Shown: one piece after another, positions 16,001 to 52,000 of the stretch
Numbering within the stretch: the stretch's first letter is position 1
Layout of the letters: the number at the start of each line of letters is the position of its first letter
NCBI GenBank assembly: GCA_903837785.1
Contig: CAILVY010000362.1
Coordinates: forward strand, 31,616 to 95,615
Source: Candidatus Hydrogenedentota bacterium
GTDB taxonomy: Bacteria; Hydrogenedentota; Hydrogenedentia; Hydrogenedentales; CAILVY01
Length of the DNA: 64,000 nt
Direction: 5' to 3'
Notes under the pieces: model-generated
Seen by the model: only the letters and a program-made list of their open reading frames with translations
What the model was told of the DNA's origin: nothing
Databases searched by the model: none
Made by a program: the position numbers and the translations under genes

Positions 16001-18158
16001 CAAACAGGTGGAAGTGCAACGGATGATTGTCCACACAATTGTTCACAACCATCCAGACTTGGGGTTGGCCGGGAATGAGGAATTCTTGCGGCGCTTCTGT
16101 GTACGCATGCGGCGTGATCGTCCAACCCATGACCGGATCGTACACCCCATTCCCAAGCAGGACCGTGCCGCGTCCATAGGCGTCGGTCCCCATCTCAATG
16201 GTCTTCACCTCGATCGGCAGGGTGAGCGCGCCCACGGGCAACGAAACGGTCGTGCCGTTGGCGGTGATGCCCGGGGCGACCAGCGGCGCCGGTTGCCCGG
16301 CCGTAAAGGCCGCAGGCAACTGCGTCTGCAAGGCCGCCAGCGTCGTCGCGTGGTCCGGATATAGCGCCGAATCTGCGGGCAGAGTCCCCGTCGGGGCGAT
16401 GACGCGGAACTGCATCAGGGTGCGCATGTTCGGCCCCATACCTGGCAAGGTCGAGGGCGCGCCGCCTGCCGGCGTCTGATCGAGATTGCCCGTATAGTAG
16501 TCATAGCGCGGGTCGCCCGCCGGCGTCGGGGCCGGGCAATCGTTGTACAGGATCAGGTTCTCGCCGGGCACGCATGCCGAAAAATCGACGATGATGTCGG
16601 CGCGTTCCGCCGGCATCAGGATCATGTTGCTCTGATTGACCAGGCCCATCGTGGGACTACCCACGGCCGTGTCCCAGCCAATCTGCACCGGCGGGTTGTT
16701 CAGTTCCACCGGCGCCGGCAGGAAGCCCGCCTCGTTGGCGATCTGAATGAACGCCGGGGGGATCGGCGCCACTAAGTCGGCTTCACCCGCCAGTGGGTCT
16801 GCAATCACGTGTGTGACGGGGTCCGGCGCCGCCATGGATTGCGCCCAATACAACTGCAGGTTGAACACGCGATCATTGCAGGCATTGAGCAGCCGGAACC
16901 GGTAGCGGCGCGGCTCCACATTCAGGAAGGGATAGGCCGTGCCATTGATGACCGGCGTGTCCATGAACGCTTCGGGTACGAAGGAAATGGCTGGCAGTGG
17001 GAGGGCGGCCGGCATCGGAGGCCACATACCGGGAGCGTAGTCCCAGCGGCCCATCGGATTGAGCAGGCCGGTGGCAAACTGGTTCGGCTGGAAGACGTGC
17101 GGGAACCACAGGTTGCCCATTCCGCCCCAATTGACCGTGTCCCACAGGGGATCGTTCGCGGCCACCGACACGGGATCGGGCACGAAAGTCTTGTCTTGGA
17201 GAATGAGAGGAATTTGAACGGAAGGAATCAAGCCTGCGGTGACCAGGCCTTGCTCGGTCGGGTCTTGGACCAGATACCCGGCGGCCACGCCGGCATATAC
17301 GTTCAGCCGGGTGATGCCCCACGCATGATCGTGATAGAACATCAATCGCGCACTCTGCTGGTTCGTCCAGTAGTACGTGCTCGCGCCGGGACCCGGATCA
17401 TTCGTCGCGCCAACCGTGCCGGCCGGCACTATCGCATGCGTCACGGGATCAAACCACATGTCCGGAACATTCTGACAGGCCACGCCCTTCGGATACGAGG
17501 TCACCTCCCCAGCGGGGGTGACCCACTGATGCGGTGTGCCGTCGCTGATCCACGGCGAGAACCCGCCGTGCAGGTGGACATCCGAACGGTTCTGCGTGAA
17601 CATCTCCATCATGCCGGGCATGCCCGGCATCGGGACGGGCCCCATGCCGGCGCCCATGAGCGTCGTGTCCACCGGGATGAACAAGTTGCCTGCCGCGCCC
17701 GTCGGAAGCATGTTCACGAACTTGACGCGCACCGCACGGTCCTTCTGGGCGATGATGAGCGGGCCTAGGTAATGCGCCGGGGCGGGCGCAACCGTGTTCG
17801 CGCCCAAGGCGTCCGTACCCAGGTTCAACTGCACGTAGCCGCGCAGCTTCGTCCCGGTCACCGGCAGGTCCGAGTGCATCCTTTCGGTGTACTGGACCAG
17901 GCCGATCTCGTAGTAGTCCGATCCCGGAAACGTAATCGTATCCGGGGTCGCGACCGGGATGAACTGCCCCAGGTTGTTCGCACCCGCAGCCCCAAGGCCC
18001 GGCAGTGAATCCACGAACTTCCGCAGGGGCGGACTGTTCAGATAATTGGGCAACGCCAGATTCGGCGCCGGAGGCACCTGGCCTGCCGCTTCAAAGAGTC
18101 CCCAGGAAAAGACAATCACCATTAAACACAACATCACACCACACTTTTTCGGAAACAT
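13047..18158 (-). CDS. Secreted multicopper oxidase with three fibronectin type III domains, an internalin-like LRR domain, an EGEGEGE linker and a C-terminal TM/Arg anchor
   Basis: Copper-site motifs HLHGGFSPWISDG, YHDHAWG, HPLHFHLFEV, HCHILGHEEADMM. FnIII repeats (PSNLTATA..., PSNLVQTA...). Many LRRs (LTSLKALALNRNQLTSVAGIGALP). C-terminus VLLIASVASMLMLARRRKLHA. Signal peptide at the N-terminus. Confidence 0.9.
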   Translation of the reverse strand: MFPKKCGVMLCLMVIVFSWGLFEAAGQVPPAPNLALPNYLNSPPLRKFVDSLPGLGAAGANNLGQFIPVATPDTITFPGSDYYEIGLVQYTERMHSDLPVTGTKLRGYVQLNLGTDALGANTVAPAPAHYLGPLIIAQKDRAVRVKFVNMLPTGAAGNLFIPVDTTLMGAGMGPVPMPGMPGMMEMFTQNRSDVHLHGGFSPWISDGTPHQWVTPAGEVTSYPKGVACQNVPDMWFDPVTHAIVPAGTVGATNDPGPGASTYYWTNQQSARLMFYHDHAWGITRLNVYAGVAAGYLVQDPTEQGLVTAGLIPSVQIPLILQDKTFVPDPVSVAANDPLWDTVNWGGMGNLWFPHVFQPNQFATGLLNPMGRWDYAPGMWPPMPAALPLPAISFVPEAFMDTPVINGTAYPFLNVEPRRYRFRLLNACNDRVFNLQLYWAQSMAAPDPVTHVIADPLAGEADLVAPIPPAFIQIANEAGFLPAPVELNNPPVQIGWDTAVGSPTMGLVNQSNMILMPAERADIIVDFSACVPGENLILYNDCPAPTPAGDPRYDYYTGNLDQTPAGGAPSTLPGMGPNMRTLMQFRVIAPTGTLPADSALYPDHATTLAALQTQLPAAFTAGQPAPLVAPGITANGTTVSLPVGALTLPIEVKTIEMGTDAYGRGTVLLGNGVYDPVMGWTITPHAYTEAPQEFLIPGQPQVWMVVNNCVDNHPLHFHLFEVQVINRIDWAGNVLPVDPRDQGWKETLRMNPMENVVVAFRPMVPILPFAVPDSIRPLDPMMPTTGPLGSVIDPVLNPNPLYNFEWEYVYHCHILGHEEADMMRPLVLMVLPPAVTSVTATLFSATQINLAWTVPAGTQTSFRIERATVVAGVAGAYTALATVASNVTTYSDLTAVAGTTYSYRVVSINGVGSAAPSPAIAITDAVPAPPSNLTATAAPLSPTPPSVTITWLDRSDNETGFTVTRATDALFTLGLTPFVVPANTTTFTDTTPLPKTLYYYHVTASNGAGPSLASPAAKVTTRGQLAAAPSNLVQTAVLGTSITMSWKDNSLNETAFYVQRVSLLGVWATIARLPANTVTFTNTPLKLNTTYMYRIVAYNLDGTSAPTNVLIATTLPVKSARADAVSASAATGQPITFADWNFEASVRIALNILDGDILDTDVEPITSLDLSHSGISDLSGIENFVNLEYLEASYNALTTLPDMSALTKLTTLEVRSNLLTSIGGAANLPALAELEVEGNAITSFTEIAGMITLEHLDVSDNPLPGLPGVGALNKLEELEAHNVNLATLSDIVGLTSLKALALNRNQLTSVAGIGALPLEALFIADNQISDLSPLAAIDSLTMLRVDGNPSGNIQSMLDTWPALQALGVSSNQVSDMSFLAGRAQSLLYLILRGGKFSVLSSVAGLPGLIQLRAESAGVSDASVLADLPSLEYVGLAGNNISDLPVLSAESRLRQLDLSGNGMSAVPANLPSGEMFWLNLAQNQVSSIAGLAAATKFGALQVAEDSVAENLLDMHSDCVGLSPLLNLTDDPLDAEAASTDVPEIEANEVTVITDGSCGGAAVAAEGEGEGEGEGEGEQSGSLMVTIEPADAREDGAKWRVDGGAWMSSGMTLSGLAVGQHTLEFKAISQEAPFFGCFGGQGKPWTTPVNQTVTITADQTTTATGTYVAQKAAAASVTGGQPWGDVLLIASVASMLMLARRRKLHA
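13436..13472. repeat. Hexanucleotide (CTTCGC)n-like tandem repeat encoding the EGEGEGEGE linker
   Basis: GCCTTCACCCTCGCCTTCGCCTTCGCCTTCGCCTTCC read directly; on the minus strand it encodes EGEGEGEGEGE. Confidence 0.9.
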
Positions 18159-25213: not shown

Positions 25214-25267
25214 GAAGGTGCGTTATTATGTAAAAGGTGAAAAACTGGGCAAGGGGTGAAGTGTGCC

Positions 25268-28200
25268 ATGACAAGGCGGTACAAGCAGTCCAAGAAGGCC
25301 CGTCCGCACAATGAATCGGCCACTTCTCAGTGTTCAGAGGCGTCAGCCGATGGCCCGAGGCCGCACGTGCCCCGCCTGGCCCGCCTCCGGCAGCACACGC
25401 CTTTGGGATGGATGACGCGTTACGGCCTGGCAATCCTGGCGGTGGCGCTTGCCTTCGGAATGCGGCTCCTCTTGACCGCCTGGGTCGGCCCAGGCTTGCC
25501 TCCCTACATCACCTTCTATCCCGCGGTGATGACCGCGGCCTTGTTGGCCGGTTTCGGGCCGGGATTAGCGGCCACGGCCTTGACGGGCGTTGTTGTGGGG
25601 TGTTGGATTCTGCCGCCATTTGGGCAATTCGGTTTCGAGTCGCCGGTGGATCGCCTGGGGATGCTGATCTTCGTGCTGATGGGCGTGTTCATGAGCGTCG
25701 TCGCCGGTCTCTACCGGCGCAACCGCGACAAGGCCGCGGACTTTGACCGCGAAGCGGCGCTCCGCGAAACGCAGGAGGCGTTGCGCACGCAAGCGGAACA
25801 GATTGACCCCGTTCGCGCGGATATCATTGCGCGTGAGATGCTGCGCGTCATGAGCGGCCGTGGCGGCGTGGCCGCGGCGCCCGCCGAAACCTCGGACAAG
25901 ACCCTGCGCCACGTTCCGTCCGTAGCGGGCGCGGCCGTGGCGGCGGTGGGCTTTCTAGTTCTGACCGGTTGGCTCTTTGGCGTGGAATCGTTCAAGAGCA
26001 TCCTTCCGGGCCTGGCCACGATGAAGGCCAATACCGCCCTGTGCTTCCTGCTCTTGGGAGCAGCATTGGCGCTCCGGGAATTCAGCGCCGTGCGGCTGGC
26101 CTGCACGGGATTCGTGCTGGCTATCGCCGGACTCACGATGTTTGAATATCTCTCCGGGATGGACCTTCTCCTGGATCAGCTCCTCTTCCGCGACACAAGA
26201 GATGTGCACACCATCTTTCCGGGCCGGATGGTTGAGGCCACCGCTCTGGGATTCCTGTTGAGCGGCACCTCGCTGCTCTTGCTGAGAGTGCGCGGCAACG
26301 CCGCGCTGCGCGTGCAACAGGCGCTGGCCGTGGGCGCCGCCATGATCGGCCTGGTCGCGGTCCTGGGCTACGTCTATGACGCCAGGCAGTTGTATCGTTT
26401 CGCCGGCTATTCGAGCATGGCCCTGCACACCGCGGTTTCACTGATTCTCTTCGCAGCCGGACTGCTCTTCGCACGGGATGGCGGGTTGCGGACGGCGTTG
26501 AGCATGCCCAAGGCCGGCGCTCAACTCCTGCGCCGGCTGCTGCCTGCGGTGCTCCTGGCGCCGGCGGCATTGGGCTGGCTCTTCCTCATGGGAGTCCGTC
26601 TGGGCATCTATGGCCATGGCATGGATGCCGTTCTCTTCGCCCTCGGGATGATGGTGTCGCTCACCGCATTCGTGTTCTGGGCGGCGCATGCGCTCAATCT
26701 TACGGACAAAGTGCGCCGCGACGCCGAAGTGCAACTGCGCAATCTGGCCGAGCTGATAAACCACGCCCAGGAGCCGCTGATTGTTCGCGAACCGGGCGGC
26801 CTCATCCGCGCATGGAACCACGGCGCCGAGGCGCTCTATGGCTGGCCGGCCGCCGAGGTGCTGGGACAGAGCATGCACCGCCTGCTCCGCACGGAAGGCC
26901 TGCCGCCCGACGAACTGGATTCGCACCTGGAAATGACGGGGCATTGGGAAGGCGAACTCGTCCACACCACTCGCGACAGCCGTCGTGTAATCGTGGAGAG
27001 CCGTCAGACCGCTCACCGCATCGATGACGGCCAGGTGTTTATCCTGGAAAGCAACCGGGACATCACCGAGCGTAAGCGCGCCGGGGACGCATTGCGCGAG
27101 AGTGAGATCTTCAAGGCGGCCATTCTGAACTCCCTGTCGGCGCATATCGCCGTGCTCGACCGCGAGGGCCAGGTCATCAGCGTCAATGAACCGTGGACGC
27201 GCTTCGCCCTCGAAAACACGCCCGCAGGCGTGTCTGCTCCGGCCGTGGGCGCCGGCTATCTGGAGGTTTGCCGCCGTGCCGCAGAAGCCCGGGATCCGCT
27301 GGCTCGTGAAGCGCTCGAAGGCATCCTCAGCGTATTGCGCGGAGAATCCCCCCACTTTGCGATGGAGTACCCCTGTCATGCGCCCGCCGAACAGCGCTGG
27401 TTCCTCATGACGGTGACGCCGATCGCGGCGCCGGGAGGCGCCGTTGTCACCCATCTCGACATCACCCGCCGGAAACAGGCCGAGGCAGCGCTGCTGGCAA
27501 GCGAGAACCGCCTGCGGCGGCTCTACGATGCCGGGCTCATCGGGGTCATTTACTGGAACATGAATGGCGAAATCACCGACGCCAATGACAAGTTCCTCGA
27601 TATGGTTGGCTACGACCGCGCGGACTTGGCCGCAGGCCGAATCCGGTGGAGCCAGATGACACCCCCGGAGTACCGGCACCTCGACGAGCACTCCGTCGTC
27701 GAAATGAAGACTACCGGCGCCAACCAGAAGCCCTTCGAGAAGGAATACTTACGCAAAGACGGTTCGCGCATTCCGGTCCTCGTTGCCGGCGTCATGCTGG
27801 ACGAAGAACGTTACAATGGAGCGGCCTTCGTGCTGGATATCACCGCGCGCAAACTGGCCGAAAAGGCCCTCAATCAGAGCGAAGAGCGATTCCGGCTCTT
27901 CATGGACAACAGTCCGGCCATCGCGTGGATCAAAGACGAAAACGGCCGCTACACGTATCTGAACAAAACCCATCAGGAGCGATTTGGTATCCGGCCCGAA
28001 GACTGGCTCGGGAAGACAGACGCCGAACTCTGGCCGCCCGAGATTGCCGCCGAGATGCGCAAGAACGATTTGGCCGTCCTGGCCGCCGGCCATGCCATCG
28101 AGGTGTCCGAAAAGACCCTGGACGCAACCGGGGCTTCCGTCCACTGGCTGAATTCGAAATTCCCCTTCGCAGACCTCGCCGGCAACCGCTTCGTGGCGGG

Positions 28201-31200
28201 TATTGGCCTGGACATGACTATGCGTTTGCACGCCGAAAAACAACTCTCGGAGACGATGCAACGGCTCCAAGCCTTGATGCAGGCCGTTCCGGTGGGAATC
28301 AGTTTCTCCAACGATACCACGTGCCGTGAGATCACGGGAAACCCGGCCGTGCTCGCCCAATTCGAAGTGTCGGCCCGGGACAACCTGTCTGCCTCTGCGC
28401 CTGACCTCGCCGCGTCCGGCCGGCAAGTGCGGTTCTTTGCCGACGGACGCCGCATCCCGGATGCCGAACTGCCCCTCCAACGCGCGGTGGCGGAAAACCG
28501 CGAAATCGCCGCTATGGAACTGGAGATCGTGCTGCCCAACGGCCGGCGCTGGTTTGCCGACGCTTCTGGCGCGCCCGTGCGCGACGCGCAAGGGAACGTT
28601 GTCGGGGGACTTGCCGTGACAGTGGACATCACCCGACGCAAGTTGACGGAGGACACCCTGCGTTTCCTGCTGGCGCAGGACAGGAGTTCCGGCGAAGATT
28701 TCTTCCGGGCCCTGGCGCAGTTTCTGTCGCACAAACTCGACATGGATGTCGTGTGTATTGACCGCCTGCAATCCGACCTCCTGGCCGCCGAAACCTTGGC
28801 GGTCTATCACGACGGAAACTTCGCGGATAATGTGGCCTATACACTCAAGGACACCCCCTGCGGCGATGTCGTGGAGAACTCCGTCTGCTGCATCGCGCGC
28901 GAGGTACGCCAACTCTTTCCCAAAGACGCCGTGCTCCAGGAGATGCTCGCCGAGAGTTATGTCGGAACCGTCCTCTGGAGTTCGCAGGGCGAGCCCATCG
29001 GCCTGATCGCCGTCATCGGGCGCAAACCGCTTTCAAACCCCGAGCTCGCGACGTCGATTCTGCAACTCGTCGCCGTGCGCGCCGCCGGTGAATTGGAGCG
29101 ACGCCAGGCCGAAGCCGCCCTGCGGGAGAGCGAAGAACGCCTGCGTCTGCTCGGGGACAATCTCCCGAAGAGCGCCGTATATCAGTACGTCCATGAGTTG
29201 GACGGCAGCGTCCGGTTCCTCTACTTCAGTGCGGGCATCGAGCGCCTCAACGGCGTCACCGCGGCCGACGTCTTGCGCGACCCCGGCACGCTGCACCGGC
29301 AGATCCCGCAGGACTACCTTGCGCGCCTCGTTGAAGCGGAAGCCCGCAGCAAGCGCGAGTTGTCCGATTTCGACATGGAATTGCCGATGAAACGCCCCGA
29401 TGGCGAATGGCGTTGGATGCACCTGCACTCACGGCCCCGCCGCCTGCCCGATGGCCGCACCGTCTGGGACGGGGTGCAAATCGACATTACCCAGCGGAAA
29501 CACATGGACAGCGAACTGGAGCGCATGAAGACCATCCTTGAAGAAGGCCAACGGCTCGCGCACTTCGGAAGTTGGGAATATGTGGCCGAGACAAGGGAAA
29601 CGATTTGGTCCGAGGAAGAACTCCGCATCTATGGATTCGACCCGGCCGGGCCATCGCCCGATTATCAGAACATGCTCAGGAACTGCATCCACCCGGAGGA
29701 CGCCGAACGGCTCGACCAGGTCTTTGGAGAGGCCCTTCGAAATGGCTCCGTCTACGAAATGGAGCACCGCATCGTGCGCCCCGACGGCACCGTCCGCCTC
29801 GTCTACGATCTCGCACAACCCCACTTCGATGAACAGGGGAAACTGCTCAAGTATGTGGGCGCGACGCTCGACATCACCGAGCGCAGGCAAGCCGAACGGG
29901 CATTGCGTGAGAGCGAACAGCGCGTACGACGGAAACTGGAGAGCGTGCTCTCGCCCGAAGGCGACCTGAGCGTGCTGGAATTGCCCGACCTCGTGGACGC
30001 CGAGGCGCTTCAGCGCCTCATGGAAGACTTCTATGCGGTGGCATGCATTCCAATGAGCCTGATGGATGCCCAGGGACGCATCCTCGTCGGCGTCGGCTGG
30101 CAGGACATCTGCACCCGTTTCCACCGCGTCCATCCGGAAACATGCCGCCATTGCCTGGAAAGCGACCTGCAGCTGGCGGGCGGCCTGGCCCCGGGCGAGC
30201 ACCGCCTGTACAGGTGCAAGAACAACATGTGGGACATGGCCACCCCCATCGTCGTGGCCGGCCAGCATCTGGGAAACATATTCAGCGGACAGTTCTTCTT
30301 CGATGACGAGACGCCGGACCGCGGGCTCTTCCGGGCCCAGGCCCGACAGTACGGCTTTGACGAGAACGACTACCTGGCGGCCCTGGACCGCGTGCCCAAA
30401 CTCAGCCGCGATACTGTCGAGCGCGGCGTGAAATTCCTCCTCACACTGGCCGGTATGATTTCCCAACTCGGCTACAGCAACGTCAAGCTTGCCCGCTTGC
30501 TGGCCGAACGCGACCGGCTTATGGCGTCCCTGCGCGAGACCGAACAGCGCTTCCGGCTGGCATTGCGCAATGCGCCGGTCTCGGTCGCAGTACAGGATCG
30601 CGAGCTCCGCTACTTGTGGGCCTATAACCAGCGCACGGCGCGGCCCGAGGACATCGTCGGGCACGTCGACGGCGATATCTTCACGCCGGAGGAGGCGGCG
30701 CGGGTCACGGCGATTAAGCAGCGTGTGCTTGAGGAAGGTGTCGAAATGCGCGAACAGATGTGGTTCCAGCGTCCCGGCGGCCCGATCTTCCTGGACCTCT
30801 GCTGGGAACCTGTTCGCGACGATGCCGGCCATGTGATCGGCGTGGCCTCCGCGACGGTTGATCTGACGCCCATCAAGAAGGCCGAGGAGGCGTTGCGCGC
30901 GAGCCAGCGGGCGCTGCAGGAGTCCCACGATCAACTGGAGCAACGGGTCCAGGAACGCACGCAGGAACTTGTGCGCGTCAACGAACTGCTCCTCAGCCAG
31001 ATAGAACAGCACGGAAGGACGCTCGATGCGCTGCGCGAGAGCGCGGCACGCCTGGCCGAAGCCCAGCGCAGGGCCCACCTCGGCGATTGGGATTGGGATT
31101 ATGCCGCAAACGCGGCCACGTGGTCCGACGAGACGTTCCGAATCCTCGGCTTTGAAGCGCAGGCCGTGGCGCCCTCGTACGAACTCTTCCTCCAGCGCGT

Positions 31201-32209
31201 CTATCCGGACGATCGCCAACACGTTGACGCGTGCCTGAACCCGTCGCGGGCCGCCATCGAGGCCAACGCCGTCGAGTGCCGCATCGTCTTGCCCGGCAGC
31301 GAGGTGCGGCACGTGTCCGTCCAAAGCGAAGTCATCCTGGACACCAGGGGCCAGCCCGGGCGCATGGCCGGCACGATCATGGATATCACTGAACAAGTCC
31401 GCGCCCGGGAAGAGGCGAAGATCCGCCAACAGCAACTTGTCCAGGCCGACAAGATGGTTTCACTCGGCATTCTCGTGGCCGGTGTCGCCCACGAAATCAA
31501 CAACCCGAACCACGCCATCATGTCCAACGCGACCCTGCTCAACGATGCCTGGACGAGCATCCGTCCGCTGTTGGAACGCACGTACAAGGACTTCGGCGAT
31601 TTTGTAGTGGGCGGCTTCGACTACTCAGACGCCCGCGACGAACTCCCCAAGATGTTCAGGGACATCGTGGCCGCCGCGCGGCGCATCGAGGCGATTGTCA
31701 CCGAACTGCGTGATTTCGCCCGCTACACCCCGGAAGAGACCATGGCCCCCGTGGAAGTGCCCCCGGTCATCGAGTCCGCCACAGTGCTCTTGTCCAACAT
31801 GATCAAGAAATCCACGGACCACTTCTCCGTCATAACCGACGGGGAGCTGCCGCCGGTCTTTGCCAACCGCCAGCGCATCGAGCAGGTCCTGATCAACCTC
31901 ATCCAGAACGCGTGCCAGTCCCTCGCCGATCGCGAGAAAAGCGTGGCGGTGAAGGCTTCCTACTCGCCCGTAACCGACGCCGTCATCATCGAAGTTGCGG
32001 ACCAGGGCGGCGGGATCTCCGAGGAGAACCTCAAGCATCTCGGGGACCCCTTCTTCACAACCAAACGCGGCTTTGGCGGGACCGGCCTCGGGCTCTGGGT
32101 TTCCTTCAACATCGTCCACGAGCACGGGGGCACGCTCGAATTCCACTCCCAACCCGGAGAAGGCACCCGCGCCGTCTTGACCCTGCCTGCCAGCCGGCGG
32201 CACGATTGA
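25268..32209 (+). CDS. Membrane-bound multi-sensor histidine kinase (two TM blocks, about 9 PAS-like domains, GAF, PocR domain, HATPase)
   Basis: N-terminal DUF4118-like TM block and a second multi-TM block. Repeated ESEERFRL...DITERK PAS units. PocR-like segment (DAEALQRLMEDFYAVACIPMSLMDAQGRILVGVGWQDICTRFHRVHPETCRHCLESD...YRCKNNMWDMATPIVVAGQHLGNIFSGQFFF). H-box VAGVAHEINNPNHAI. HATPase GTGLGLWVSFNIVHEHGG. Confidence 0.92.
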   Translation: MTRRYKQSKKARPHNESATSQCSEASADGPRPHVPRLARLRQHTPLGWMTRYGLAILAVALAFGMRLLLTAWVGPGLPPYITFYPAVMTAALLAGFGPGLAATALTGVVVGCWILPPFGQFGFESPVDRLGMLIFVLMGVFMSVVAGLYRRNRDKAADFDREAALRETQEALRTQAEQIDPVRADIIAREMLRVMSGRGGVAAAPAETSDKTLRHVPSVAGAAVAAVGFLVLTGWLFGVESFKSILPGLATMKANTALCFLLLGAALALREFSAVRLACTGFVLAIAGLTMFEYLSGMDLLLDQLLFRDTRDVHTIFPGRMVEATALGFLLSGTSLLLLRVRGNAALRVQQALAVGAAMIGLVAVLGYVYDARQLYRFAGYSSMALHTAVSLILFAAGLLFARDGGLRTALSMPKAGAQLLRRLLPAVLLAPAALGWLFLMGVRLGIYGHGMDAVLFALGMMVSLTAFVFWAAHALNLTDKVRRDAEVQLRNLAELINHAQEPLIVREPGGLIRAWNHGAEALYGWPAAEVLGQSMHRLLRTEGLPPDELDSHLEMTGHWEGELVHTTRDSRRVIVESRQTAHRIDDGQVFILESNRDITERKRAGDALRESEIFKAAILNSLSAHIAVLDREGQVISVNEPWTRFALENTPAGVSAPAVGAGYLEVCRRAAEARDPLAREALEGILSVLRGESPHFAMEYPCHAPAEQRWFLMTVTPIAAPGGAVVTHLDITRRKQAEAALLASENRLRRLYDAGLIGVIYWNMNGEITDANDKFLDMVGYDRADLAAGRIRWSQMTPPEYRHLDEHSVVEMKTTGANQKPFEKEYLRKDGSRIPVLVAGVMLDEERYNGAAFVLDITARKLAEKALNQSEERFRLFMDNSPAIAWIKDENGRYTYLNKTHQERFGIRPEDWLGKTDAELWPPEIAAEMRKNDLAVLAAGHAIEVSEKTLDATGASVHWLNSKFPFADLAGNRFVAGIGLDMTMRLHAEKQLSETMQRLQALMQAVPVGISFSNDTTCREITGNPAVLAQFEVSARDNLSASAPDLAASGRQVRFFADGRRIPDAELPLQRAVAENREIAAMELEIVLPNGRRWFADASGAPVRDAQGNVVGGLAVTVDITRRKLTEDTLRFLLAQDRSSGEDFFRALAQFLSHKLDMDVVCIDRLQSDLLAAETLAVYHDGNFADNVAYTLKDTPCGDVVENSVCCIAREVRQLFPKDAVLQEMLAESYVGTVLWSSQGEPIGLIAVIGRKPLSNPELATSILQLVAVRAAGELERRQAEAALRESEERLRLLGDNLPKSAVYQYVHELDGSVRFLYFSAGIERLNGVTAADVLRDPGTLHRQIPQDYLARLVEAEARSKRELSDFDMELPMKRPDGEWRWMHLHSRPRRLPDGRTVWDGVQIDITQRKHMDSELERMKTILEEGQRLAHFGSWEYVAETRETIWSEEELRIYGFDPAGPSPDYQNMLRNCIHPEDAERLDQVFGEALRNGSVYEMEHRIVRPDGTVRLVYDLAQPHFDEQGKLLKYVGATLDITERRQAERALRESEQRVRRKLESVLSPEGDLSVLELPDLVDAEALQRLMEDFYAVACIPMSLMDAQGRILVGVGWQDICTRFHRVHPETCRHCLESDLQLAGGLAPGEHRLYRCKNNMWDMATPIVVAGQHLGNIFSGQFFFDDETPDRGLFRAQARQYGFDENDYLAALDRVPKLSRDTVERGVKFLLTLAGMISQLGYSNVKLARLLAERDRLMASLRETEQRFRLALRNAPVSVAVQDRELRYLWAYNQRTARPEDIVGHVDGDIFTPEEAARVTAIKQRVLEEGVEMREQMWFQRPGGPIFLDLCWEPVRDDAGHVIGVASATVDLTPIKKAEEALRASQRALQESHDQLEQRVQERTQELVRVNELLLSQIEQHGRTLDALRESAARLAEAQRRAHLGDWDWDYAANAATWSDETFRILGFEAQAVAPSYELFLQRVYPDDRQHVDACLNPSRAAIEANAVECRIVLPGSEVRHVSVQSEVILDTRGQPGRMAGTIMDITEQVRAREEAKIRQQQLVQADKMVSLGILVAGVAHEINNPNHAIMSNATLLNDAWTSIRPLLERTYKDFGDFVVGGFDYSDARDELPKMFRDIVAAARRIEAIVTELRDFARYTPEETMAPVEVPPVIESATVLLSNMIKKSTDHFSVITDGELPPVFANRQRIEQVLINLIQNACQSLADREKSVAVKASYSPVTDAVIIEVADQGGGISEENLKHLGDPFFTTKRGFGGTGLGLWVSFNIVHEHGGTLEFHSQPGEGTRAVLTLPASRRHD

Positions 32210-33610: not shown

Positions 33611-35938
33611 TCAGCGCCGGCTCTCGATGCCGTCAATATACCCCAAGGCTCCCGTGGGGATGTTGGCGGCATTCCCTTCGTCCGTATCGAGGTGCATCGC
33701 GAGCTTGTAGTCCGGACTGACGCGCACCAGCACGTCGCCGAAAAGGAGATCGCGGTCACTCTCCACACGGACCCGGACAACGTCTTTGTTTCTGAGTCCG
33801 AAATGCAGCGCGTCCTCCGGCATCATGTGGATATGCCGCAACGCGCAGATCACCCCGTGACTCAGTGTTATCGAACCGCTGGGTCCTTCCATTGTAATCC
33901 CGGGCGTCCCTTCAAGTGCCCCGGACTCTCGGATGGGCGGCTGCACGCCCAGCTTGAACTGCTCCGTCATGGCGATCTCCACCTGGGACTCGTTCCGGAC
34001 CGGTCCCAGGATGCGGACATTGTCGATCCGGCCGCGCGGGCCAATCAGGTTCACTTTCTCCTTGCACGCGAACTGGCCCGGCTGAGAAAGCATCTGATGA
34101 ACCGTCAGCGCGTAACCCCGGCCGAAGAGCGCCTCAACATGCTCCTGGGTCAAATGCACGTGATGCGCCGAGATCTCGATCGGGACCGGCATCGGCGCCT
34201 GGGTCCGCAGGATATCCGCGACATACTGCCGTTCGATCGCACGCAGGGTTTCCCGCGCGATCATGCGCTCCTCGTCCGTCGGCACCACGAGCACGCGCAC
34301 CGCGGACCCGTCCGCGCTGATGTCCCAGATCTCCTCGAAGCCGCGCGCTTCGCGGTTCTTCGCCTCGTCGATCCGGATGCCCATGAACCCCAGGCCCTGG
34401 CACGCAAGGCTGCGCGCCCACACGCTCCCCTGGCCGATGCCGCCCGTGAAGACCAGCGCGTCCAGGCCGCCCATGGCCGCCCCGTACGCGCCCACATATT
34501 TGCGAATCCGATAGCAGAACGTCTTGATCGCCTGCAGCGCCCGCGCATTCCCGGCGTCGGCCGCCGATTCGATCTCGCGCATGTCGTTCGAAACGCCCGA
34601 AAGCCCCTTCAGCCCTCCGTCCTTGTTGATGAGCCGATTCAGTTGCTCCGCGTCCAGATGCTCCGTGCGCATGAGGTGAACCAGGATGGCGGGGTCTATG
34701 TCGCCGCAGCGGCTGCCCATGATGAGCCCCTCTGTCGGTGTCAGCCCCATTGATGTGTCGACAGATCGCCCATGATCAATCGCGCAGACAGACGCGCCGT
34801 TGCCCAGATGGCAGACGATCGTCTCCAGCTCGTTGTAGGGACGCTTCAGAAACTCGGCCGCCTTCAGCGAAACGTACTTGTGCGAAATGCCGTGAAACCC
34901 GTAGCGGCGTATCCCCTTCTGCTCGAAGTACTCATAGGGCAGCCCGTACAAATACGCGTACGGAGGCATGACCTGATGGAATGCCGTGTCGAACACCGCC
35001 ACGTGCGGCACCTCAGGCAGGAGTCGTTGGGCCTCGCGGATGCCGCACAAATTCGCGGGATTGTGCAGCGGCGCCAAGGCCGCGGCCTTCTCGATCTCCT
35101 GGACAACCTCGTCCGTGAGGATCGCCTGATGGCTGTACATGCTGCCGCCGTGCACCACCCGGTGGCCCACCGCCGAAACCTCGGACAGCGACCGCAGAAC
35201 ACCGCTGCCCGGCGCGGTAAGCGCGGCAATCATGGCCGCAAATGCTTCCGCGAAACCCGCGTTCGGCAAGGGCTGCGCCGATCTTCCTTTGCCGGATTCA
35301 TGCGTGTGCGTGGTCCCCTCCGCGCCTATCCGTTCCACGGCGCCGTGCGCATTGCCGCCCTCATTCCATGTGTCGAAGAGGTCGTACTTGAGCGAGGACG
35401 ACCCGCAGTTGATCACGAGCAGCTTCATGGGCTTGTCGGTTCTCAATTTGAACCCGTACGGATCGTCGCTGCGCTTGATCGCCGACGCGGCCACATCCGG
35501 CATCGTGCCGGCCGAGGCGGTCTTCTGAAGGCGTTCCACGATAGTCTTGGAGAGGCACGAAATGGCCGGGAGATTCGTGGCGATCATCGTCGCGAACAAC
35601 GGCCCCTGAATCTGAAGCACTTGACACGGCGTGAGCGCCACCACATCCGCCACCGTCTTGTTCCCCGTCATCATCTCCATCTCGCCGAAGATCATGCCGG
35701 GCTCCAGGATGATCAGTTGATGCTTGTCGCCGCCGTCGTCTGTCACAGACGCTTCCGCCGTCCCATCCAGCAGCACCCCCAGGAACCGGCCCTCCTCGCC
35801 GAACTCGATGATGGACTCGTTTGACTCATATGTGACGACGCTCGACGCTCCGGCCAGCGAAACAAGCGCGGCATCCGTGAACGCATGGAAGAGCGCAACT
35901 TGTGTCTTGAGGTAGTGTGGAATGGCAGTCTGGTCCAT
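33611..35938 (-). CDS. Tri-domain fusion: cyclic nucleotide-binding-like domain + acetate/propionate kinase (AckA/TdcD-like) + PduL-type phosphate propanoyltransferase
   Basis: CNB: SIIEFGEEGRFLGVLLDGTAEASV...LEPGMIFGEMEMMTGNKTVADVVAL. Kinase from 35428: MKLLVINCGSSSLKYDLF, GHRVVHGG, AVFDTAFH, YGFHGISHKYV, CHLGNGAS, MGLTPTEGLIMGSRCGDIDP. PduL: ISAHHVHLTQEHVEALFG, LSQPGQFACKEKV, ILGPVRNESQVEIA, LRHIHMMPEDA, MHLDTDEGNAA. GGAGAG RBS before ATG 35938. One uninterrupted frame. Confidence 0.93.
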   Translation of the reverse strand: MDQTAIPHYLKTQVALFHAFTDAALVSLAGASSVVTYESNESIIEFGEEGRFLGVLLDGTAEASVTDDGGDKHQLIILEPGMIFGEMEMMTGNKTVADVVALTPCQVLQIQGPLFATMIATNLPAISCLSKTIVERLQKTASAGTMPDVAASAIKRSDDPYGFKLRTDKPMKLLVINCGSSSLKYDLFDTWNEGGNAHGAVERIGAEGTTHTHESGKGRSAQPLPNAGFAEAFAAMIAALTAPGSGVLRSLSEVSAVGHRVVHGGSMYSHQAILTDEVVQEIEKAAALAPLHNPANLCGIREAQRLLPEVPHVAVFDTAFHQVMPPYAYLYGLPYEYFEQKGIRRYGFHGISHKYVSLKAAEFLKRPYNELETIVCHLGNGASVCAIDHGRSVDTSMGLTPTEGLIMGSRCGDIDPAILVHLMRTEHLDAEQLNRLINKDGGLKGLSGVSNDMREIESAADAGNARALQAIKTFCYRIRKYVGAYGAAMGGLDALVFTGGIGQGSVWARSLACQGLGFMGIRIDEAKNREARGFEEIWDISADGSAVRVLVVPTDEERMIARETLRAIERQYVADILRTQAPMPVPIEISAHHVHLTQEHVEALFGRGYALTVHQMLSQPGQFACKEKVNLIGPRGRIDNVRILGPVRNESQVEIAMTEQFKLGVQPPIRESGALEGTPGITMEGPSGSITLSHGVICALRHIHMMPEDALHFGLRNKDVVRVRVESDRDLLFGDVLVRVSPDYKLAMHLDTDEGNAANIPTGALGYIDGIESRR

Positions 35939-35990: not shown

Positions 35991-37748
35991 CTACAGGGTT
36001 GGGCGCGCCACGGCAAGCCTGCATGCGGCGCGGCGCAAGCCTTCAAAGAACAACACACTCAGAGCGAACTGCACCGCAAACGTGATACCCGCTGATATGG
36101 CGGGATTGAACCCCCACGGAGCAAGGCCCGCCTTGCTTGCCAATTGGATGTTCACGGAACCGATCGCCAAGAGCAGAAACAAGGCCGCAAAGAGAGGGAC
36201 AGCGGAGGCCAGCACAGCGCCCAACACTCTTCCCTGCCACGATCTTGACGAGAAGTTGACGAGGGCGCCGCATGACGCGAGGTGAAACGTGGAAAGCACC
36301 GAGAGAGGATAGAACCTCACGGGATTCGCGGTCACAGTCACTGCGTCAAGACGGAACAGCACATAGGCGCCATGGAACGAGGCAAGCGCCATTCCAGCGA
36401 TTACCGCGAGCACGATGGACTGCACCTTGGCCCCGCTCTTGCCCATCCTGACGAGTGCGATGGCCAACCCGAGACCGGCGAGCGCGGCAAGGATGAAATG
36501 CGTCCCTGAATCGGGCGCGTACAGCGTCAACAGGGCAGCATCCAGAGAATCCAGGATTGTGTCACTGCATTTCCAGAGTGCCGGCGCACGTTCCGCAAGG
36601 CTGCACACGAAATCCCGGCCGTCACTGCCGTAGAGCACGCACTTGTCCTCGCCGAAGTTGGCAATCTGAAGGCGCGAATTGCTGAACACGTCATCCTGCG
36701 AAACCGAGGTGACGCCGATCACGCTGACGAAACCGTAGCCGGCAGCGCCGGCAATGCGCAACGGGACGATTCCCGAGGATGTGGGATGAACGGAGATGAT
36801 GCGCGACTTGCCTTCGATGCGGTCGCCAGTGATCGTGTAGGGCGGCTCTGGGCGAAAGGCAATGCGCGGATCGCCCAGGAGGCAATACCCCGCGACTTGC
36901 GCGTTTCCGCGGAGGCCTTCCCTCAATACGGATACGGCCGTGCCCACGGGAAATCCCGGCCACGTGAGCGAAAACGGCGCCTCTCCCTTCATTCCCCAGC
37001 CCGACATCGGACTGATGAAGTACCCCGCATAGGCGGCCGCGCCCCGCTCAATGAACTCAAGGGCAATGCTGCGCCCTTCCCAGATGCGCAGGGTCTGGCA
37101 GCCCCGCGAGTCTGCTATCAAGGGCCGCAGCGGGGGCACGTCCCGGCTCTCAATAGCGCTACCCGCTTCATCAAGTGTGAACTGCACAGCGCTGCCGTGC
37201 CCGTTGAAGACAAAGTAGTCCGTGGATTGCAGACGGGCGAGAACTGCCCCCTTGTTGAGCGTGCTTTCTTCGCGACTGTCGTCCCTCAGATGAATAATCC
37301 CGGCGCGTCTATGGCTCGGCCGATTCTGCGTATTGACGATAAGGACATCCTGTCCTTTGACGCCTTGGGCGCGGCGATACAGTTCCCGGCTCGTTTCCAG
37401 CGACCGGCCCGTGATGAGCCCCACCGCAATCGAACGGCCGCCTTCACGGAGTTGGGCGCCAAACTCGGCCAGACGCTTGTCGGACAGGCGTTCCGGCGCC
37501 ACCACCCAGAGCAGAAAGAGTGGCGATGGCGCCAAGGCATCCTCCAAGGTTTCCGCCAGAAGGAGCCGCTCCTCTTGGGCGATCTCCCGCGCCAATGCAG
37601 TGTAGGGATCATCGGGATACGCCAGAACCACGGTCCGAAGAACGGGAAATGCCTGTGGAGCGGCTGAGGAAGGACCCTGGCCTCTGGTAGCATCTGCCGC
37701 GCTTGCCGCGACGGCTGCGATGATGAACCCCGACAAGAAGCTGCACAT
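35991..37748 (-). CDS. C25 (gingipain)-like cysteine peptidase domain fused to a C-terminal multi-TM region
   Basis: YFVFNGHGSAVQF (His) and LIADSRGCQTLRIWEGRSIALEFIERGAAAYAGYF (Cys), C25-like. C-terminal hydrophobic segments (HFILAALAGLGLAIALV, SIVLAVIAGMALASF, VLASAVPLFAALFLLLAIG). GGAAGAGG RBS before ATG 37748. Confidence 0.6.
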   Translation of the reverse strand: MCSFLSGFIIAAVAASAADATRGQGPSSAAPQAFPVLRTVVLAYPDDPYTALAREIAQEERLLLAETLEDALAPSPLFLLWVVAPERLSDKRLAEFGAQLREGGRSIAVGLITGRSLETSRELYRRAQGVKGQDVLIVNTQNRPSHRRAGIIHLRDDSREESTLNKGAVLARLQSTDYFVFNGHGSAVQFTLDEAGSAIESRDVPPLRPLIADSRGCQTLRIWEGRSIALEFIERGAAAYAGYFISPMSGWGMKGEAPFSLTWPGFPVGTAVSVLREGLRGNAQVAGYCLLGDPRIAFRPEPPYTITGDRIEGKSRIISVHPTSSGIVPLRIAGAAGYGFVSVIGVTSVSQDDVFSNSRLQIANFGEDKCVLYGSDGRDFVCSLAERAPALWKCSDTILDSLDAALLTLYAPDSGTHFILAALAGLGLAIALVRMGKSGAKVQSIVLAVIAGMALASFHGAYVLFRLDAVTVTANPVRFYPLSVLSTFHLASCGALVNFSSRSWQGRVLGAVLASAVPLFAALFLLLAIGSVNIQLASKAGLAPWGFNPAISAGITFAVQFALSVLFFEGLRRAACRLAVARPTL

Positions 37749-38001
37749 CCGTCCTCTTCCTTGTCCGGCTTGCCCGCCGGCCATCTTCCGGCCCGGCGTC
37801 ATGCTAATAGAATGAGCGGCGCACGCACAACAGGCAACAAGAGAACAAGGAATCGGCTATGTTTCCGTTCCGCCCGACTGCCCTGCCCCTGTTGCGCTTG
37901 GAGTTTGAATCCAGGCGCCCTCCTGACGCAACGGCCTCGTTGTCGCTTCGTTGCCGCAATGCTATACTCCAAGTGACATCCGCCATGCGGAACGGGGTGG
38001 C

Positions 38002-39615: not shown

Positions 39616-39771
39616 CACTCTGACCCGGACACCCGTTCGCACGGCCCGTTTTGAAGTCAAGTGCCGGAACGGCGTAAAAGGGAGCGTCTCGGAAGACAGA
39701 TGGGGGTTCAACCTTTCCGGAGCATGTGAAGGAGCGTGTGGAATGCAGGACGGCCAGGGAGACTCGCAAGC

Positions 39772-42195
39772 ATGAATAAGAATGCCGCATGGATAACGAT
39801 CACGATCTCCGCGCTTCTGTTGGCCCAGTCGTCGACAGCAGACAATTCGGAGAAGAAGCTGCGTATCGTCGTATTCGGCGCGCATTGTGATGATCCAGAG
39901 ACGGGCGCGGGCGGACTCGTGGCGCAGTTGACCCAGGCAGGCCATGAAGTGATCCTGGCCTATGCCGCCACGTTCCGCGGCGACCGCAAGATTGACGGCG
40001 AACCCGAGGACACAGTGCGCCGCCGGGAATCCACCGCGGCCTGCAATGTCCTTGGCGCCAAACCCTACTTCTTCCCCTACGACATGGCCACGCTCACGGC
40101 CGATCCGGCCACTGCCAGGCAATTCTACGACTGGATCAACGGGGTCAATCCGGACATCGTTTTGGCCCATTGGCCCCTGGATACACACCCCAACCACCAG
40201 GTGGTCGGCGCGCTGGCCTGGCAGGCCTACCGCCACGAGGGCGGCTGGTCGTTGTACTACTTTGAAGTGCTCACGGATACGCAGTCCATGAGCTTCCGGC
40301 CTGACGTGTACGTGGACATCGCGCCGGTCATTGACCGCAAGAAGGAGGCGGTTGACTGCGTTGTGAGCCAGGACCCGAAGGAACTGTGGGACCTGCACGA
40401 CACCATGCATCTCGCGCGCGGAAGGGAATGCGGCTGCGAACGCGCCGAGGCCTACTTCCTCGTCGAAGCCAAGCCGGGCTCGGCCTTGCTCCCGTTGCCC
40501 GTCAGGACCCGTTCCGACTGTCCTGAAGCCCGCGGTCGTCAGCAAGAGAATCTCGACCGGGGATTGGCCGCAATGCCCCTGGACAAAGGAGTCTATTTGT
40601 GTTGGCGCCTCTTCAAGAAGGACTTCCCGGGACTGGCCTTCAATGTCTATCGCGCTCTCGACTCCGGCGTTGGCGAGAAACTGAATGAGACGCCGATCGA
40701 GAAGACGACAGACTTTACGGACGTCTCTGCGCCCCCCGACAAAGACAAGACGTACTGGATTGAGCCGCTCCTCTACAAGATGCCGCAGGGAATATCGAAG
40801 AAAGTGAACGTAAACGCCGGCGCAGCGGCGACGCCCTTCCGTTCCATCAAGCTCAACGGCGACTATGACGTGCAGAAAGTCGGCATCGGCGATCTCGACG
40901 GCGACGGCCGTTATGACTTCGTTCTCAAGCAGCCCGATGCAAACGTGGATCCCGGCAATTCCTACTGGAATCCCAGCCCGGGCACATACAAGCTCGAAGC
41001 CTATCTGCAGGACGGCGCCTTCCTCTGGCAGAAGGACCTGGGCTGGTCCATCGAACAAGGCATCTGGTACTCCCCCTACGTCGTCTATGATTTTGACGGC
41101 GACGGAAAGGCCGAGGTGGCTGTCAAGACCGGCGAGGGCGACCCGCGCCAGGACGAGGGCCGTGTCAAGGCCGGCCCCGAGTACGTGTCCCTACTGAATG
41201 GCATGACGGGCGAAGAACTCACCCGTGCGCCGTGGCTGCCCCGCCTGGACGTCTACAAGCTCTCCAGCCGGAATCAATTGGGCGTGGCCTTTCTGGACGG
41301 CAAGACGCCGCATCTCATGATGGCCAGAGGTACTTACGAAGACATGCGCCTGGCCGCGTTTCGCTTCCGCAACGGCGCTTTGGAATGCGTTTGGGAGTGG
41401 TCCAACGCCGGAGAACCCAAGACGTTTTGGGGGCAGGGGGCCCATTTCATGCATTGCGCGGACATCGACGGCGACGGCCGCGACGAAGTGGTCCTGGGCT
41501 CCTGCGCCGTCGATGATAACGGCAAAAGCCTCTGGGCCACCGGCCTCGGCCATCCCGACCACTGCTATCTGGGCGAAATCGATCCCGCCCATCCGGGCCT
41601 GGAGATTTACTACGGCATCGAAGGCGAACGCGCGGAACGGGACAAGAACGGCCTCTGCCTCGTGGACGCCAAGACCGGCGCTTTGCTCTGGGGGCTCGAT
41701 GAACACACATGGCACGTGCATGCCTCAGGACTGTGTGCCGACATCGACGCCCGTTATCCCGGCCTCGAATGCTACAGCGGCGAGACGGATATGCCCAAGG
41801 AGAAGCCCCACCGCTGGCTGCGCGCCGCATACGGCCAGATGCTGGCCAGGGAAGACACTTGTGACATGGGCCTTTCGCCTCGAACCGCATTCTGGGACGC
41901 CGATCTCCAGCGGGAACTCATCAACGATTCCCGCATCTACAAGTTCGAATCCGGCGCCGTCTGTCTCGAACCCATCGCCGGCCGCCAACTGGCCTGGGCC
42001 GACCTGTTTGGCGATTGGCGCGAGGAAGTCATCACGGGCCTCCCCGGCGAGCTGCGCATCTACTCGACCTCGATCCCGGCCGCAGACCGGCGCCCCTGCC
42101 TCATGCAGGACCCGCTGTACCGCCAGGACGTGGCGCATCTCGCCATGGGCTATGCACAACCGCCCATGCTGTCCTACGGGCTTGCCGGATACTGA
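39772..42195 (+). CDS. Fusion of PIG-L family deacetylase and rhamnogalacturonan lyase (PL11-like)
   Basis: PIG-L: VFGAHCDDPETGAGGLVAQLTQAGHEVILAYA, HWPLDTHPNHQVVG. PL11: GVYLCWRLFKKDFPGLAFNVYRALDSG, VGIGDLDGDGRYDFVLKQPD, YDFDGDGKAEVAVKTGEGDP, DWREEVITGLPGELRIYST. GGGAGA RBS and signal peptide at ATG 39772. Confidence 0.88.
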   Translation: MNKNAAWITITISALLLAQSSTADNSEKKLRIVVFGAHCDDPETGAGGLVAQLTQAGHEVILAYAATFRGDRKIDGEPEDTVRRRESTAACNVLGAKPYFFPYDMATLTADPATARQFYDWINGVNPDIVLAHWPLDTHPNHQVVGALAWQAYRHEGGWSLYYFEVLTDTQSMSFRPDVYVDIAPVIDRKKEAVDCVVSQDPKELWDLHDTMHLARGRECGCERAEAYFLVEAKPGSALLPLPVRTRSDCPEARGRQQENLDRGLAAMPLDKGVYLCWRLFKKDFPGLAFNVYRALDSGVGEKLNETPIEKTTDFTDVSAPPDKDKTYWIEPLLYKMPQGISKKVNVNAGAAATPFRSIKLNGDYDVQKVGIGDLDGDGRYDFVLKQPDANVDPGNSYWNPSPGTYKLEAYLQDGAFLWQKDLGWSIEQGIWYSPYVVYDFDGDGKAEVAVKTGEGDPRQDEGRVKAGPEYVSLLNGMTGEELTRAPWLPRLDVYKLSSRNQLGVAFLDGKTPHLMMARGTYEDMRLAAFRFRNGALECVWEWSNAGEPKTFWGQGAHFMHCADIDGDGRDEVVLGSCAVDDNGKSLWATGLGHPDHCYLGEIDPAHPGLEIYYGIEGERAERDKNGLCLVDAKTGALLWGLDEHTWHVHASGLCADIDARYPGLECYSGETDMPKEKPHRWLRAAYGQMLAREDTCDMGLSPRTAFWDADLQRELINDSRIYKFESGAVCLEPIAGRQLAWADLFGDWREEVITGLPGELRIYSTSIPAADRRPCLMQDPLYRQDVAHLAMGYAQPPMLSYGLAGY

Positions 42196-48807: not shown

Positions 48808-49084
48808 GGCTCCGCGACTCCTTGCTTTGTGTCCCTGGCGATGTCGTCCTGAAGTATCTTCCGTGCGGCCATGAAACCAGAAAACCCGTTCCAGGTGCAA
48901 TACGCTGGCGCCCGCTCGCCCCGTTCCCGTCCGATAGACTGCTCATCTTTGCACGGCGAAAACTGCCCGGGCGCTCTGATAGACTTCCGGAGTTCGGGTG
49001 CAGGCGCCTCGAAGGCCGGCGGTCTGTGCGGCCGATCTGTCAGGAACAAGGCGATTGAACACGGCCAAACCTGGGAAGCAATCC

Positions 49085-52000
49085 ATGATGAATATGCACG
49101 TTGCACGCACACTCGTTGCACGACTCTCCGCACGGCTTAGGAACGGGCTCCCTCTGAGCTTCGGCATGCTCGCCGCCTGTGTCTTCTGCGCGTCTTTGGC
49201 AAGTGCCGAAGCGGACAGCCTGAAGGAGGAATTCGTCTCGCCGCCCGACGCCGCGCGCCCGTGGGTCTACTGGTTCTTCATGGACGGCAACCTCACGCGC
49301 GATGGCATCACGGCCGATCTCGAAGCCATGAACAAGGCCGGCATCGGCGGCGCCATCTGCATGGAAGTGGGCATCGGCATTGAACGCGGACCCGTGGAAT
49401 TCATGAGTCCAGCCTGGCAGGAACTGATCGGGCATGCCTTCTCCGAGGCCAATCGCCTCGGCCTGCAACTGGCCATGGCGGCGGGTCCCGGGTGGTGCGG
49501 CACCGGCGGGCCGTGGGTGAAGCCCGACCAATCCATGCAGCACCTCGTTGCGAGCGAAACCGCTGCGCGGGGCCCCGCCAGGTTCGACGCGGTCCTGCCG
49601 CGGCCCCAACCGCGCAAGCCCTTCTTTGGCGAGGACACACTCACGCCCGAACTGCACAAGGCCTGGCAGGACTTCTATCAGGACGTGGCCCTGCTCGCCT
49701 TTCCCACGCCCGCAGGGAATGCCCGGCTGGCCGATGCCGACGAGAAGGCGCTCTACTTTCGCGCCCCCTACTCCTCGCAGCCCGGCGTGAAACCCTTCCT
49801 TCCGGCCCCGGCCGAACATCCCGAAACACCGGGGGATCACTGCATCGACGCCGGCAAGACTATCGAGTTAACCGGGAAACTCGACCCGGACGGGCGTCTC
49901 CTGTGGGACGTTCCGCCGGGCGATTGGACGATCATGCGTTTCGGACGCACGATCACCGGCCAGACGTCGCGGCCCGCTCCCGCGCCGGGACTGGGACTCG
50001 AATCGGACAAGTTCGACCCCGCCGCAATGGACGCCCATTTCGCGGCCTTCATCGAAACCCTCCTGAGGAAGGTGGGCGAACCCGTGGCGCCGGGACGCGG
50101 ATTGACCACGCTGCACTTTGACAGTTGGGAAATGAGTTCGCAGAACTGGTCGCCGAAATTCCGCGACGAGTTCAAGGCGAGGCGAGGCTATGATCCGGCG
50201 CCCTTCCTGCCGGCCATGAGCGGACGCATCGTGGACTCCGTCGAAGTCTCCGAGCGCTTTCTCTGGGACCTGCGCCAAACGGCCCAGGAACTCGTGATCG
50301 AGAATCATGTGCTGCGCCTCAAGACCCTGGGGCAAAAGCATGGACTTGAACTCTCCATTGAGCCGTACGACCTGAATCCCTGTTCCGATCTCCTGCTGGG
50401 CAGTGCGGCGGACGTGCCCATGTGCGAGTTCTGGTCCAAAGGTTGGGACTTCCCCACGGAGTATGGCTGCGTCGAGGCCTCCTCAATCGCGCATGTCACG
50501 GGAAAGTCCATCGTCGGTGCCGAGGCGTTCACCGGAAAACCGGGCGAAGACTGGCAACAGTATCCCGCTTCCATGAAAGAACAGGGCGACTGGGCGCTGT
50601 GCGCCGGCATCAACCGCTTCGTCTTTCACCGCTATCAGGCGCAGCCCTGGCTCGACCGCTATCCCGGCATGACTATGGGCCCATACGGCGTCCACTGGGA
50701 ACGCACGCAGACGTGGTGGGATTTCGCGGGTGCCTATCACCGCTATCTGAGCCGGTGCCAGCAGATGCTTCGCCGAGGCCTCTTCGTCGCAGACATCCTC
50801 TATCTCGCGCCCGAAGGCGCGCCGAGCGTCTTCTGCCCGCCGCCTTCCGCCTTCCAGGACGGATTCCAGGACCGGCGTGGTTATACGTTTGATGGATGCG
50901 CGCCCGATATCCTGATCGATCACGCTTCCGTACAGGATGGGCGAATTGTCTTCCCCGACGGCATGAGCTATCGGATGCTCGTATTGCCGCGCTTCGACAC
51001 CATGACACCCCGCCTGCTCCAGAAGATCACCGAACTCGTTGAAGACGGCGCTGTTGTCCTGGGCGCGCCGCCCCGCAAGTCGCCCAGCCTTTCGGGCTAC
51101 CCCGCGTGTGACGGGCACGTGCGCGAACTTGCCGCGAAACTCTGGGGCGCAGGCGAAGCGGTGCCCCGGCGCGATATGGGCACGGGACAGATCATCCTCG
51201 ACACCGCAGCGCCGGCCGGCGGACAGGCAAAGGCTTCAGAACTCTATCCCGACTACGCCACGACCGCAAAATTGCTCTCGGATATGGGGCTGCCCCCCGA
51301 TTTCGATACGGACGGCAACCTCCGCCACATCCATCGCCGCGACGGGGGGGCGGACTTCTATTTCATCGCCAACCGTAACGGCGAAACGCAGGCCGCAACC
51401 TGCCGTTTCCGTGTCTCCGGCCGTCAGCCCGAGTGGTGGAATCCCATGACCGGCGCCTGCCGCGACTTGCCGGATTTCATCACGAAAGAGGGCGTCACGG
51501 CCCTTCCCGTGCGCCTGGATGCGTATGAAAGCGGATTCGTCATATTCCGAAAACCGATTGCAACGGACGCGCGAAGGGGAGCGAACTTCCCGGAGCGCAG
51601 CACCGTCCTCACGCTTGCGGCGCCGTGGAACGTCTCTTTCGATCCCAAATGGGGCGGCCCGGAACGGGTTGTGTTCGCCCATCTTGAAGACTGGAGCAAG
51701 CGCCCCGAACCAGGCATCAGGCACTACTCCGGAAAGGCCGTGTACCGCACCACGTTTGACTGTCCCGCGGATGCGGCAAAGGGCCGCTGTTATCTCTCCC
51801 TGGGGGCGGTGAAGAATCTTGCCGCGATAGCCCTCAACGGCACGGACCTCGGCGTCGTGTGGTGCGACCCGTGGCGGGCGGAGATTCCGGGCGGAGTACT
51901 CAAAGAGCACGGCAACGCGCTCGAAATCACGGTCGCGAATCTCTGGATCAACCGGCTCATTGGCGATGCCGCCTTGCCCCAGGAGAAACGGCTGACGTGG

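Follow-up and report, generated by a model that had tools for sequence, protein, structure and literature searches.

The analysed window, a stretch of 64,000 nucleotides from the metagenome-assembled genome (MAG) of a Candidatus Hydrogenedentota bacterium, carries on its minus strand a gene that encodes a CNB-like domain, an acetate/propionate kinase (AckA) and a PduL (PTAC) domain in a single polypeptide (Table 1). The reading frame is open from position 36058 down to the stop codon, and alignment with relatives sets the start at the ATG at 35938; a scan for promoters and terminators gave no signal clearly above chance. Directly upstream on the same strand lies a 603-residue open reading frame without Pfam match (35991-37802), and two genes from the fusion gene the plus strand encodes a sensor histidine kinase of 2317 residues that contains numerous PAS domains along with a PocR sensory domain (25256-32209). 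Elsewhere in the window, one plus-strand open reading frame combines a PIG-L deacetylase-like domain with a family 11 rhamnogalacturonan lyase (39736-42195), a GH106 alpha-L-rhamnosidase is encoded in the same region (48998-52099), and a minus-strand open reading frame of 1703 residues carries multicopper-oxidase, fibronectin III and leucine-rich repeats (13047-18158).

Table 1. Features of the fusion gene and its product, in coordinates of the window
Feature	Position	Strand	Details
CNB-AckA-PduL fusion gene	33611..35938	(-)	775 aa; ATG 35938, stop 33611-33613
CNB-like domain	35504..35938	(-)	residues 1-145; Pfam cNMP_binding core 35-122
Phosphate-binding-cassette equivalent	35645..35689	(-)	residues 84-98, FGEMEMMTGNKTVAD; canonical Ala/Arg/Ala = E88/T95/V96
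CNB-kinase linker	35429..35503	(-)	residues 146-170; conserved DPYG motif directly before kinase
Acetate/propionate kinase domain	34253..35425	(-)	residues 172-562; profile, alignment and fold matches
Kinase-PduL junction	34187..34228	(-)	residues 571-584
PduL (PTAC) domain	33659..34183	(-)	residues 586-760; profile, alignment and fold matches
HVHL motif	34151..34162	(-)	residues 593-596; H593/H595 = rPduL Zn1 ligands H48/H50 (PMC4784909)
RHIHM motif	33824..33838	(-)	residues 701-705; H702/H704 = rPduL Zn2 ligands H157/H159 (PMC4784909)

A preliminary description of this DNA had placed the three domains in one uninterrupted frame; the Pfam search recovers all of them, with both enzymes complete, and the boundaries proposed at that stage are correct to within a few codons, with Met171 at 35428 and the two metal-binding motifs where the table lists them. 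The cNMP_binding match (E 1.8e-15) exceeds its curated cut-off, Acetate_kinase (PF00871) is covered over profile positions 1-392 of 392 (E 2e-144, 481.5 bits against a cut-off of 22), and PTAC (PF06130) over 1-175 of 176 (E 6.5e-77, likewise above the curated cut-off); the PTA_PTB domain of Pta (PF01515) is absent from the protein by the same search. Among NCBIfam models, the general AckA subfamily TIGR00016 scored 473.8 bits against a cut-off of 293.4 and the phosphate propanoyltransferase model PRK15070 lay above its cut-off, and no narrow equivalog was found.

Both enzyme domains appear to be equipped for catalysis. Residues were mapped by aligning the protein with M. thermophila AckA and R. 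palustris PduL. On the kinase side, the equivalents of N7, S10, S12, K14, R91, H123, D148, H180, N211, G239, R241, D283, R285, G331 and E384 are present, so that in the alignment the PHOSPHATE1, PHOSPHATE2 and ADENOSINE motifs and the catalytic residues are all matched. The AckA residues checked are known active-site residues of acetate kinases. For Asn211, Gly239, Gly331, Arg285 and PHOSPHATE1 the roles have been described (PMC4390882), as have those of the rPduL zinc ligands, Arg103 and Ser127 (PMC4784909). In the PduL domain, H48, H50, E109, H157, H159, H204, R103, S127 and Q107 are all retained; the metal ligands and R103, which correspond to H593, H595, E654, H702, H704, H749 and R648 of the fusion, are invariant in 22 sequences, and the sole checked contact not matched is the CoA contact K70, replaced by Q615. 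An AlphaFold2 model built from the 22-sequence alignment (mean pLDDT 84.9, pTM 0.78) matches AckA 1g99 (TM 0.93 by target) and PduL 5cuo (TM 0.97) in Foldseek, with kinetoplastid PKA-R structures leading the fold matches of the CNB; judged by descriptions and lengths, none of the best 50 Foldseek matches combines two of the three domains. The model is of low confidence for the CNB-kinase linker and for residues 404-412, a segment that contains R410. In most of the close pairs that were compared, the linker is the part under the least constraint; the kinase-PduL junction starts, in the model, as an extension of the predicted C-terminal AckA helix (residues 556-579).

The fusion is the only Acetate_kinase match and the only PTAC match in the source genome. 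No Pta was found there; the one weak PTA_PTB match was rejected as a Pta, being PlsX-like by sequence and adjoining a FabD-like gene (read by eye). As the MAG is 93% complete, these absences are not certain. Genes of the POR_N (pyruvate-ferredoxin-oxidoreductase) type are present. A bacterial microcompartment is the usual, if not required, setting of PduL; such a setting was rejected for the source organism, in whose genome no BMC shell protein (PF00936) was matched. No gene neighbours are shared across the four genomes of the phylum that carry the fusion, so that context does not fix the substrate or the pathway, and the unannotated open reading frame lists of the named GTDB loci revealed no obvious shared neighbour either.

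With its catalytic residues intact and no other AckA or PTAC found in the genome, the protein is best read as a one-chain enzyme of substrate-level phosphorylation, and we consider it probable that it is a bifunctional enzyme interconverting acyl-CoA, acyl-phosphate and ATP with a built-in ligand sensor. The PduL domain is predicted to convert acyl-CoA and Pi reversibly into acyl-phosphate and CoA at its dimetal site, and the AckA domain would then use acyl-phosphate and ADP to yield acid and ATP, the acid most likely being acetate or propionate. Judging from genome content (POR-type genes, no Pta detected), the pathway probably runs towards acetate (or propionate) with formation of ATP. The N-terminal CNB-like domain probably has a small-molecule ligand that is not cAMP and that alters the activity or the assembly of the enzyme. 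We infer the activities, their direction and their regulation; the proposed coupling of the two reactions is read from the intact sites and the gene inventory.

An assembly or frameshift artefact merging separate genes, which had been named as one outcome that would undo the proposal, is ruled out by independent full-length homologues, one of them from a cultured isolate. Searches for the same domain order, as the preliminary description had advised, recovered the architecture in other genomes of the phylum and in several further phyla. Within the phylum sample (68 genomes, all of one order), four genomes from three families encode the full-length, uninterrupted fusion, namely the source genome, G060 (69% identity), G001 of the same genus (65%) and G055 (58%); PF06130 occurs in exactly these four, each time solely within the fusion, and the lack of a stand-alone PduL in the sample argues against a local fusion within Hydrogenedentota. 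The three-domain protein is also found in at least 12 named GTDB genome records, ten of the twelve copies being fully readable because those of L061 and L050 are cut short or damaged close to the end of a contig. Carriers among the matches listed are Zoogloea, Dechloromonas hankyongensis (the isolate), Azonexaceae, one Rhodocyclales MAG with three further MAGs of that type from Proteobacteria, two Syntrophaceae, Brocadiia, Elusimicrobia and Spirochaetes, the last with a copy cut by the contig end. Among the same matches, AckA-PduL proteins without a CNB span Myxococcota, Bacteroidota and Proteobacteria; they come from Myxococcota with related Deltaproteobacteria, from Gammaproteobacteria, Rhizobiaceae, Burkholderiales and Cytophagales, and there is a partial match in Microscillaceae.

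An unrooted tree of 58 AckA domains, computed by a quick method, separates all 22 fused kinases from the 36 stand-alone AckAs by one branch (SH-aLRT 99) and divides the fused ones into a CNB-bearing group (SH-aLRT 96) and a CNB-free group (91). A tree restricted to the PduL domains of these 22 fused proteins shows the same split (support 100 and 99). The topology fits an AckA-PduL fusion event that apparently happened once, a CNB gained or lost a single time, and spread across phyla. All three domains are under purifying selection, the CNB being less constrained than the enzyme domains. The carriers vary in their other AckA and Pta genes: the Brocadiia genome and both Syntrophaceae genomes have the fused AckA only, with no Pta found, and none was found in G055; G060 shows two matches of PTA_PTB type, both partial; in the Spirochaetes genome the fused AckA is the only one but a Pta is encoded, and the Elusimicrobia genome holds a separate AckA and a Pta besides the fusion.

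In seven Rhodocyclales-type genomes (L042-L046 and L059, whose proteins are in the alignment, and L050) the kinase domain is without most of its nucleotide-binding residues. In the six aligned proteins S10, S12, K14, N211, G331 and E384 (the last to D) are replaced, R285 is replaced in five of the six, and G239 is a proline (alignment by inspection). In total, seven to eight catalytic or nucleotide-binding residues are lost and the PduL residues are intact. The stem branch of the group is longer in the AckA tree (0.84) than in the PduL tree (0.26), yet pairwise dN/dS within the group, by a simple counting method, is still low in both domains (kinase 0.08-0.18, PduL 0.04-0.13), which implies that the gene is maintained. 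Six of the seven genomes hold a separate full-length AckA, the exception being the Zoogloea MAG, in which no second one was found; these separate AckAs are intact at the checked sites, except that one genome has three paralogues with R285K. Pta-type genes occur in all seven genomes and adjoin the separate AckA in at least five. This pattern suggests that the Rhodocyclales members are a candidate pseudokinase branch, and with their kinase degenerate the fusion family as a whole does not share the coupled activity. One could extend this reading to the source protein and regard it as a regulated PduL with an inactive kinase, in line with the Rhodocyclales losses and with the other intact AckA and Pta that those genomes mostly carry. 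We hold this to be very improbable, however, since the same residues are present in the source protein and its relatives in the phylum, and no AckA besides the fusion was found in the source genome. In the Brocadiia and Syntrophaceae fusions (L041, L047, L048) N211 is a serine: this exchange strongly reduced the activity of M. thermophila AckA (PMC4390882), so their kinases may be slow.

In PKA-RIa, a reference for the sensor domain, A202, R209 and A210 form part of the cAMP-binding consensus, and in trypanosome PKA-R these positions are E, T/N and V and the protein binds inosine, guanosine and adenosine instead (PMC10959531). The preliminary description had envisaged a one-protein, possibly ligand-gated machine for substrate-level phosphorylation with acyl-phosphate channelling. 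Its one-protein part is supported by the single chain, the catalytic residues and the sole AckA and PTAC found in the genome, and channelling would be a hypothetical further property of such a chain; gating by cAMP or cGMP, in contrast, is unlikely. The position of the phosphate-binding Arg (T95 in the source protein) is T, S, A, I, V or L in 14 of 14 aligned CNB members and never Arg, and the conserved cassette Glu is a Val in the Rhodocyclales members. Loss of the phosphate clamp, as read from the alignment, is thus a feature of the whole CNB-AckA-PduL family. It is specific to the fusion CNB, because three other CNB domains of the source genome keep the Arg in a PR-x-A(T/D) form. That the domain is nevertheless a true cyclic-nucleotide receptor, gating the enzyme as in mycobacterial Pat, would be consistent with its fold, with the Pfam match above cut-off and with weak matches to CNB-enzyme fusions such as Pat itself; the source genome moreover encodes class III cyclase-like domains, so that cAMP is not dismissible on grounds of supply. 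Set against the missing Arg, we nonetheless judge such a receptor improbable.

Slightly less improbable is a domain that binds purine nucleosides as kinetoplastid PKA-R does, through which the enzyme would sense purine turnover or energy state. E88, T95 and V96 align with E311, T318 and V319 of TbPKAR, which set nucleoside specificity, trypanosome PKA-R 6flo is the best PDB sequence match of the CNB, and PKA-R structures also lead by fold. The decisive E311, however, is matched in the source protein only, position 88 being S or A in the other 13 aligned members, and the fold matches do not distinguish wild-type PKA-R from its cAMP-converted mutant (6h4g). The triad, complete in the source protein alone, may therefore be coincidental, and a purine nucleoside as ligand is a specific guess that concerns this one protein. 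A purely structural, ligand-free CNB that serves oligomerisation, with the fusion keeping the two enzymes in fixed proportion, has a somewhat better though still minor chance: cassette residues vary over the family, AckA-PduL proteins without a CNB exist, and CNB folds lacking cyclic-nucleotide ligands are known. Retention of the domain by all clade members over several phyla, under purifying selection, speaks against it. The composite scenario in which a non-cyclic purine nucleoside switches the coupled enzyme through the CNB and a sister branch in Rhodocyclales uses a pseudokinase to regulate PduL is, taken as a whole, a long shot.

With the kinases AckA, TdcD and PduW (PF00871, TIGR00016; 1g99, 2iir, 7fj7) the fusion shares the full domain, the fold and the catalytic residues, but its kinase sits within a three-domain chain and in a clade apart from the stand-alone AckAs compared. 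Its PduL domain, for all its likeness to the Rhodopseudomonas palustris enzyme (PF06130; 5cuo) in fold, metal ligands and phosphate/CoA contacts, differs in being joined C-terminally to AckA, in a genome with no shell protein found. The separate Pta-AckA pathway catalyses the same two consecutive reactions; here they would be united in one chain, with PduL replacing Pta. The cAMP-regulated mycobacterial Pat, in which a CNB is joined with an acetyltransferase, and the CNB-containing encapsulins of family 2B are further cases of a CNB module outside kinases and transcription factors, yet these weak matches involve different enzymes, and the fusion CNB is without the cAMP Arg. Unlike the kinetoplastid PKA-R CNBs (6flo, 6hyi; PMC10959531), its closest relatives in the PDB, the fusion CNB is single, bacterial and attached to metabolic enzymes, with a triad that is unconserved in its family. 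In the searchable literature, which omits most subscription journals, we found no description or enzymology of the fusion, so that the earlier view of the domain order as uncharacterised holds to that extent. The fusion is confirmed as a real and widespread gene.

In a great many bacteria AckA acts with Pta or PduL to set the acetyl-phosphate pool and to produce ATP, the enzymes normally being separate polypeptides. A naturally occurring AckA-PduL chain with a sensor would make it possible to test directly for acyl-phosphate channelling and for allosteric control at this node. The family also offers a natural experiment, setting a branch with an intact kinase, mostly the sole AckA of its genomes, against one with a degenerate kinase in genomes that hold other Pta-AckA genes. 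Its CNB, devoid of the cAMP-binding Arg, is a candidate for revealing non-cyclic ligands of the CNB fold in bacteria.
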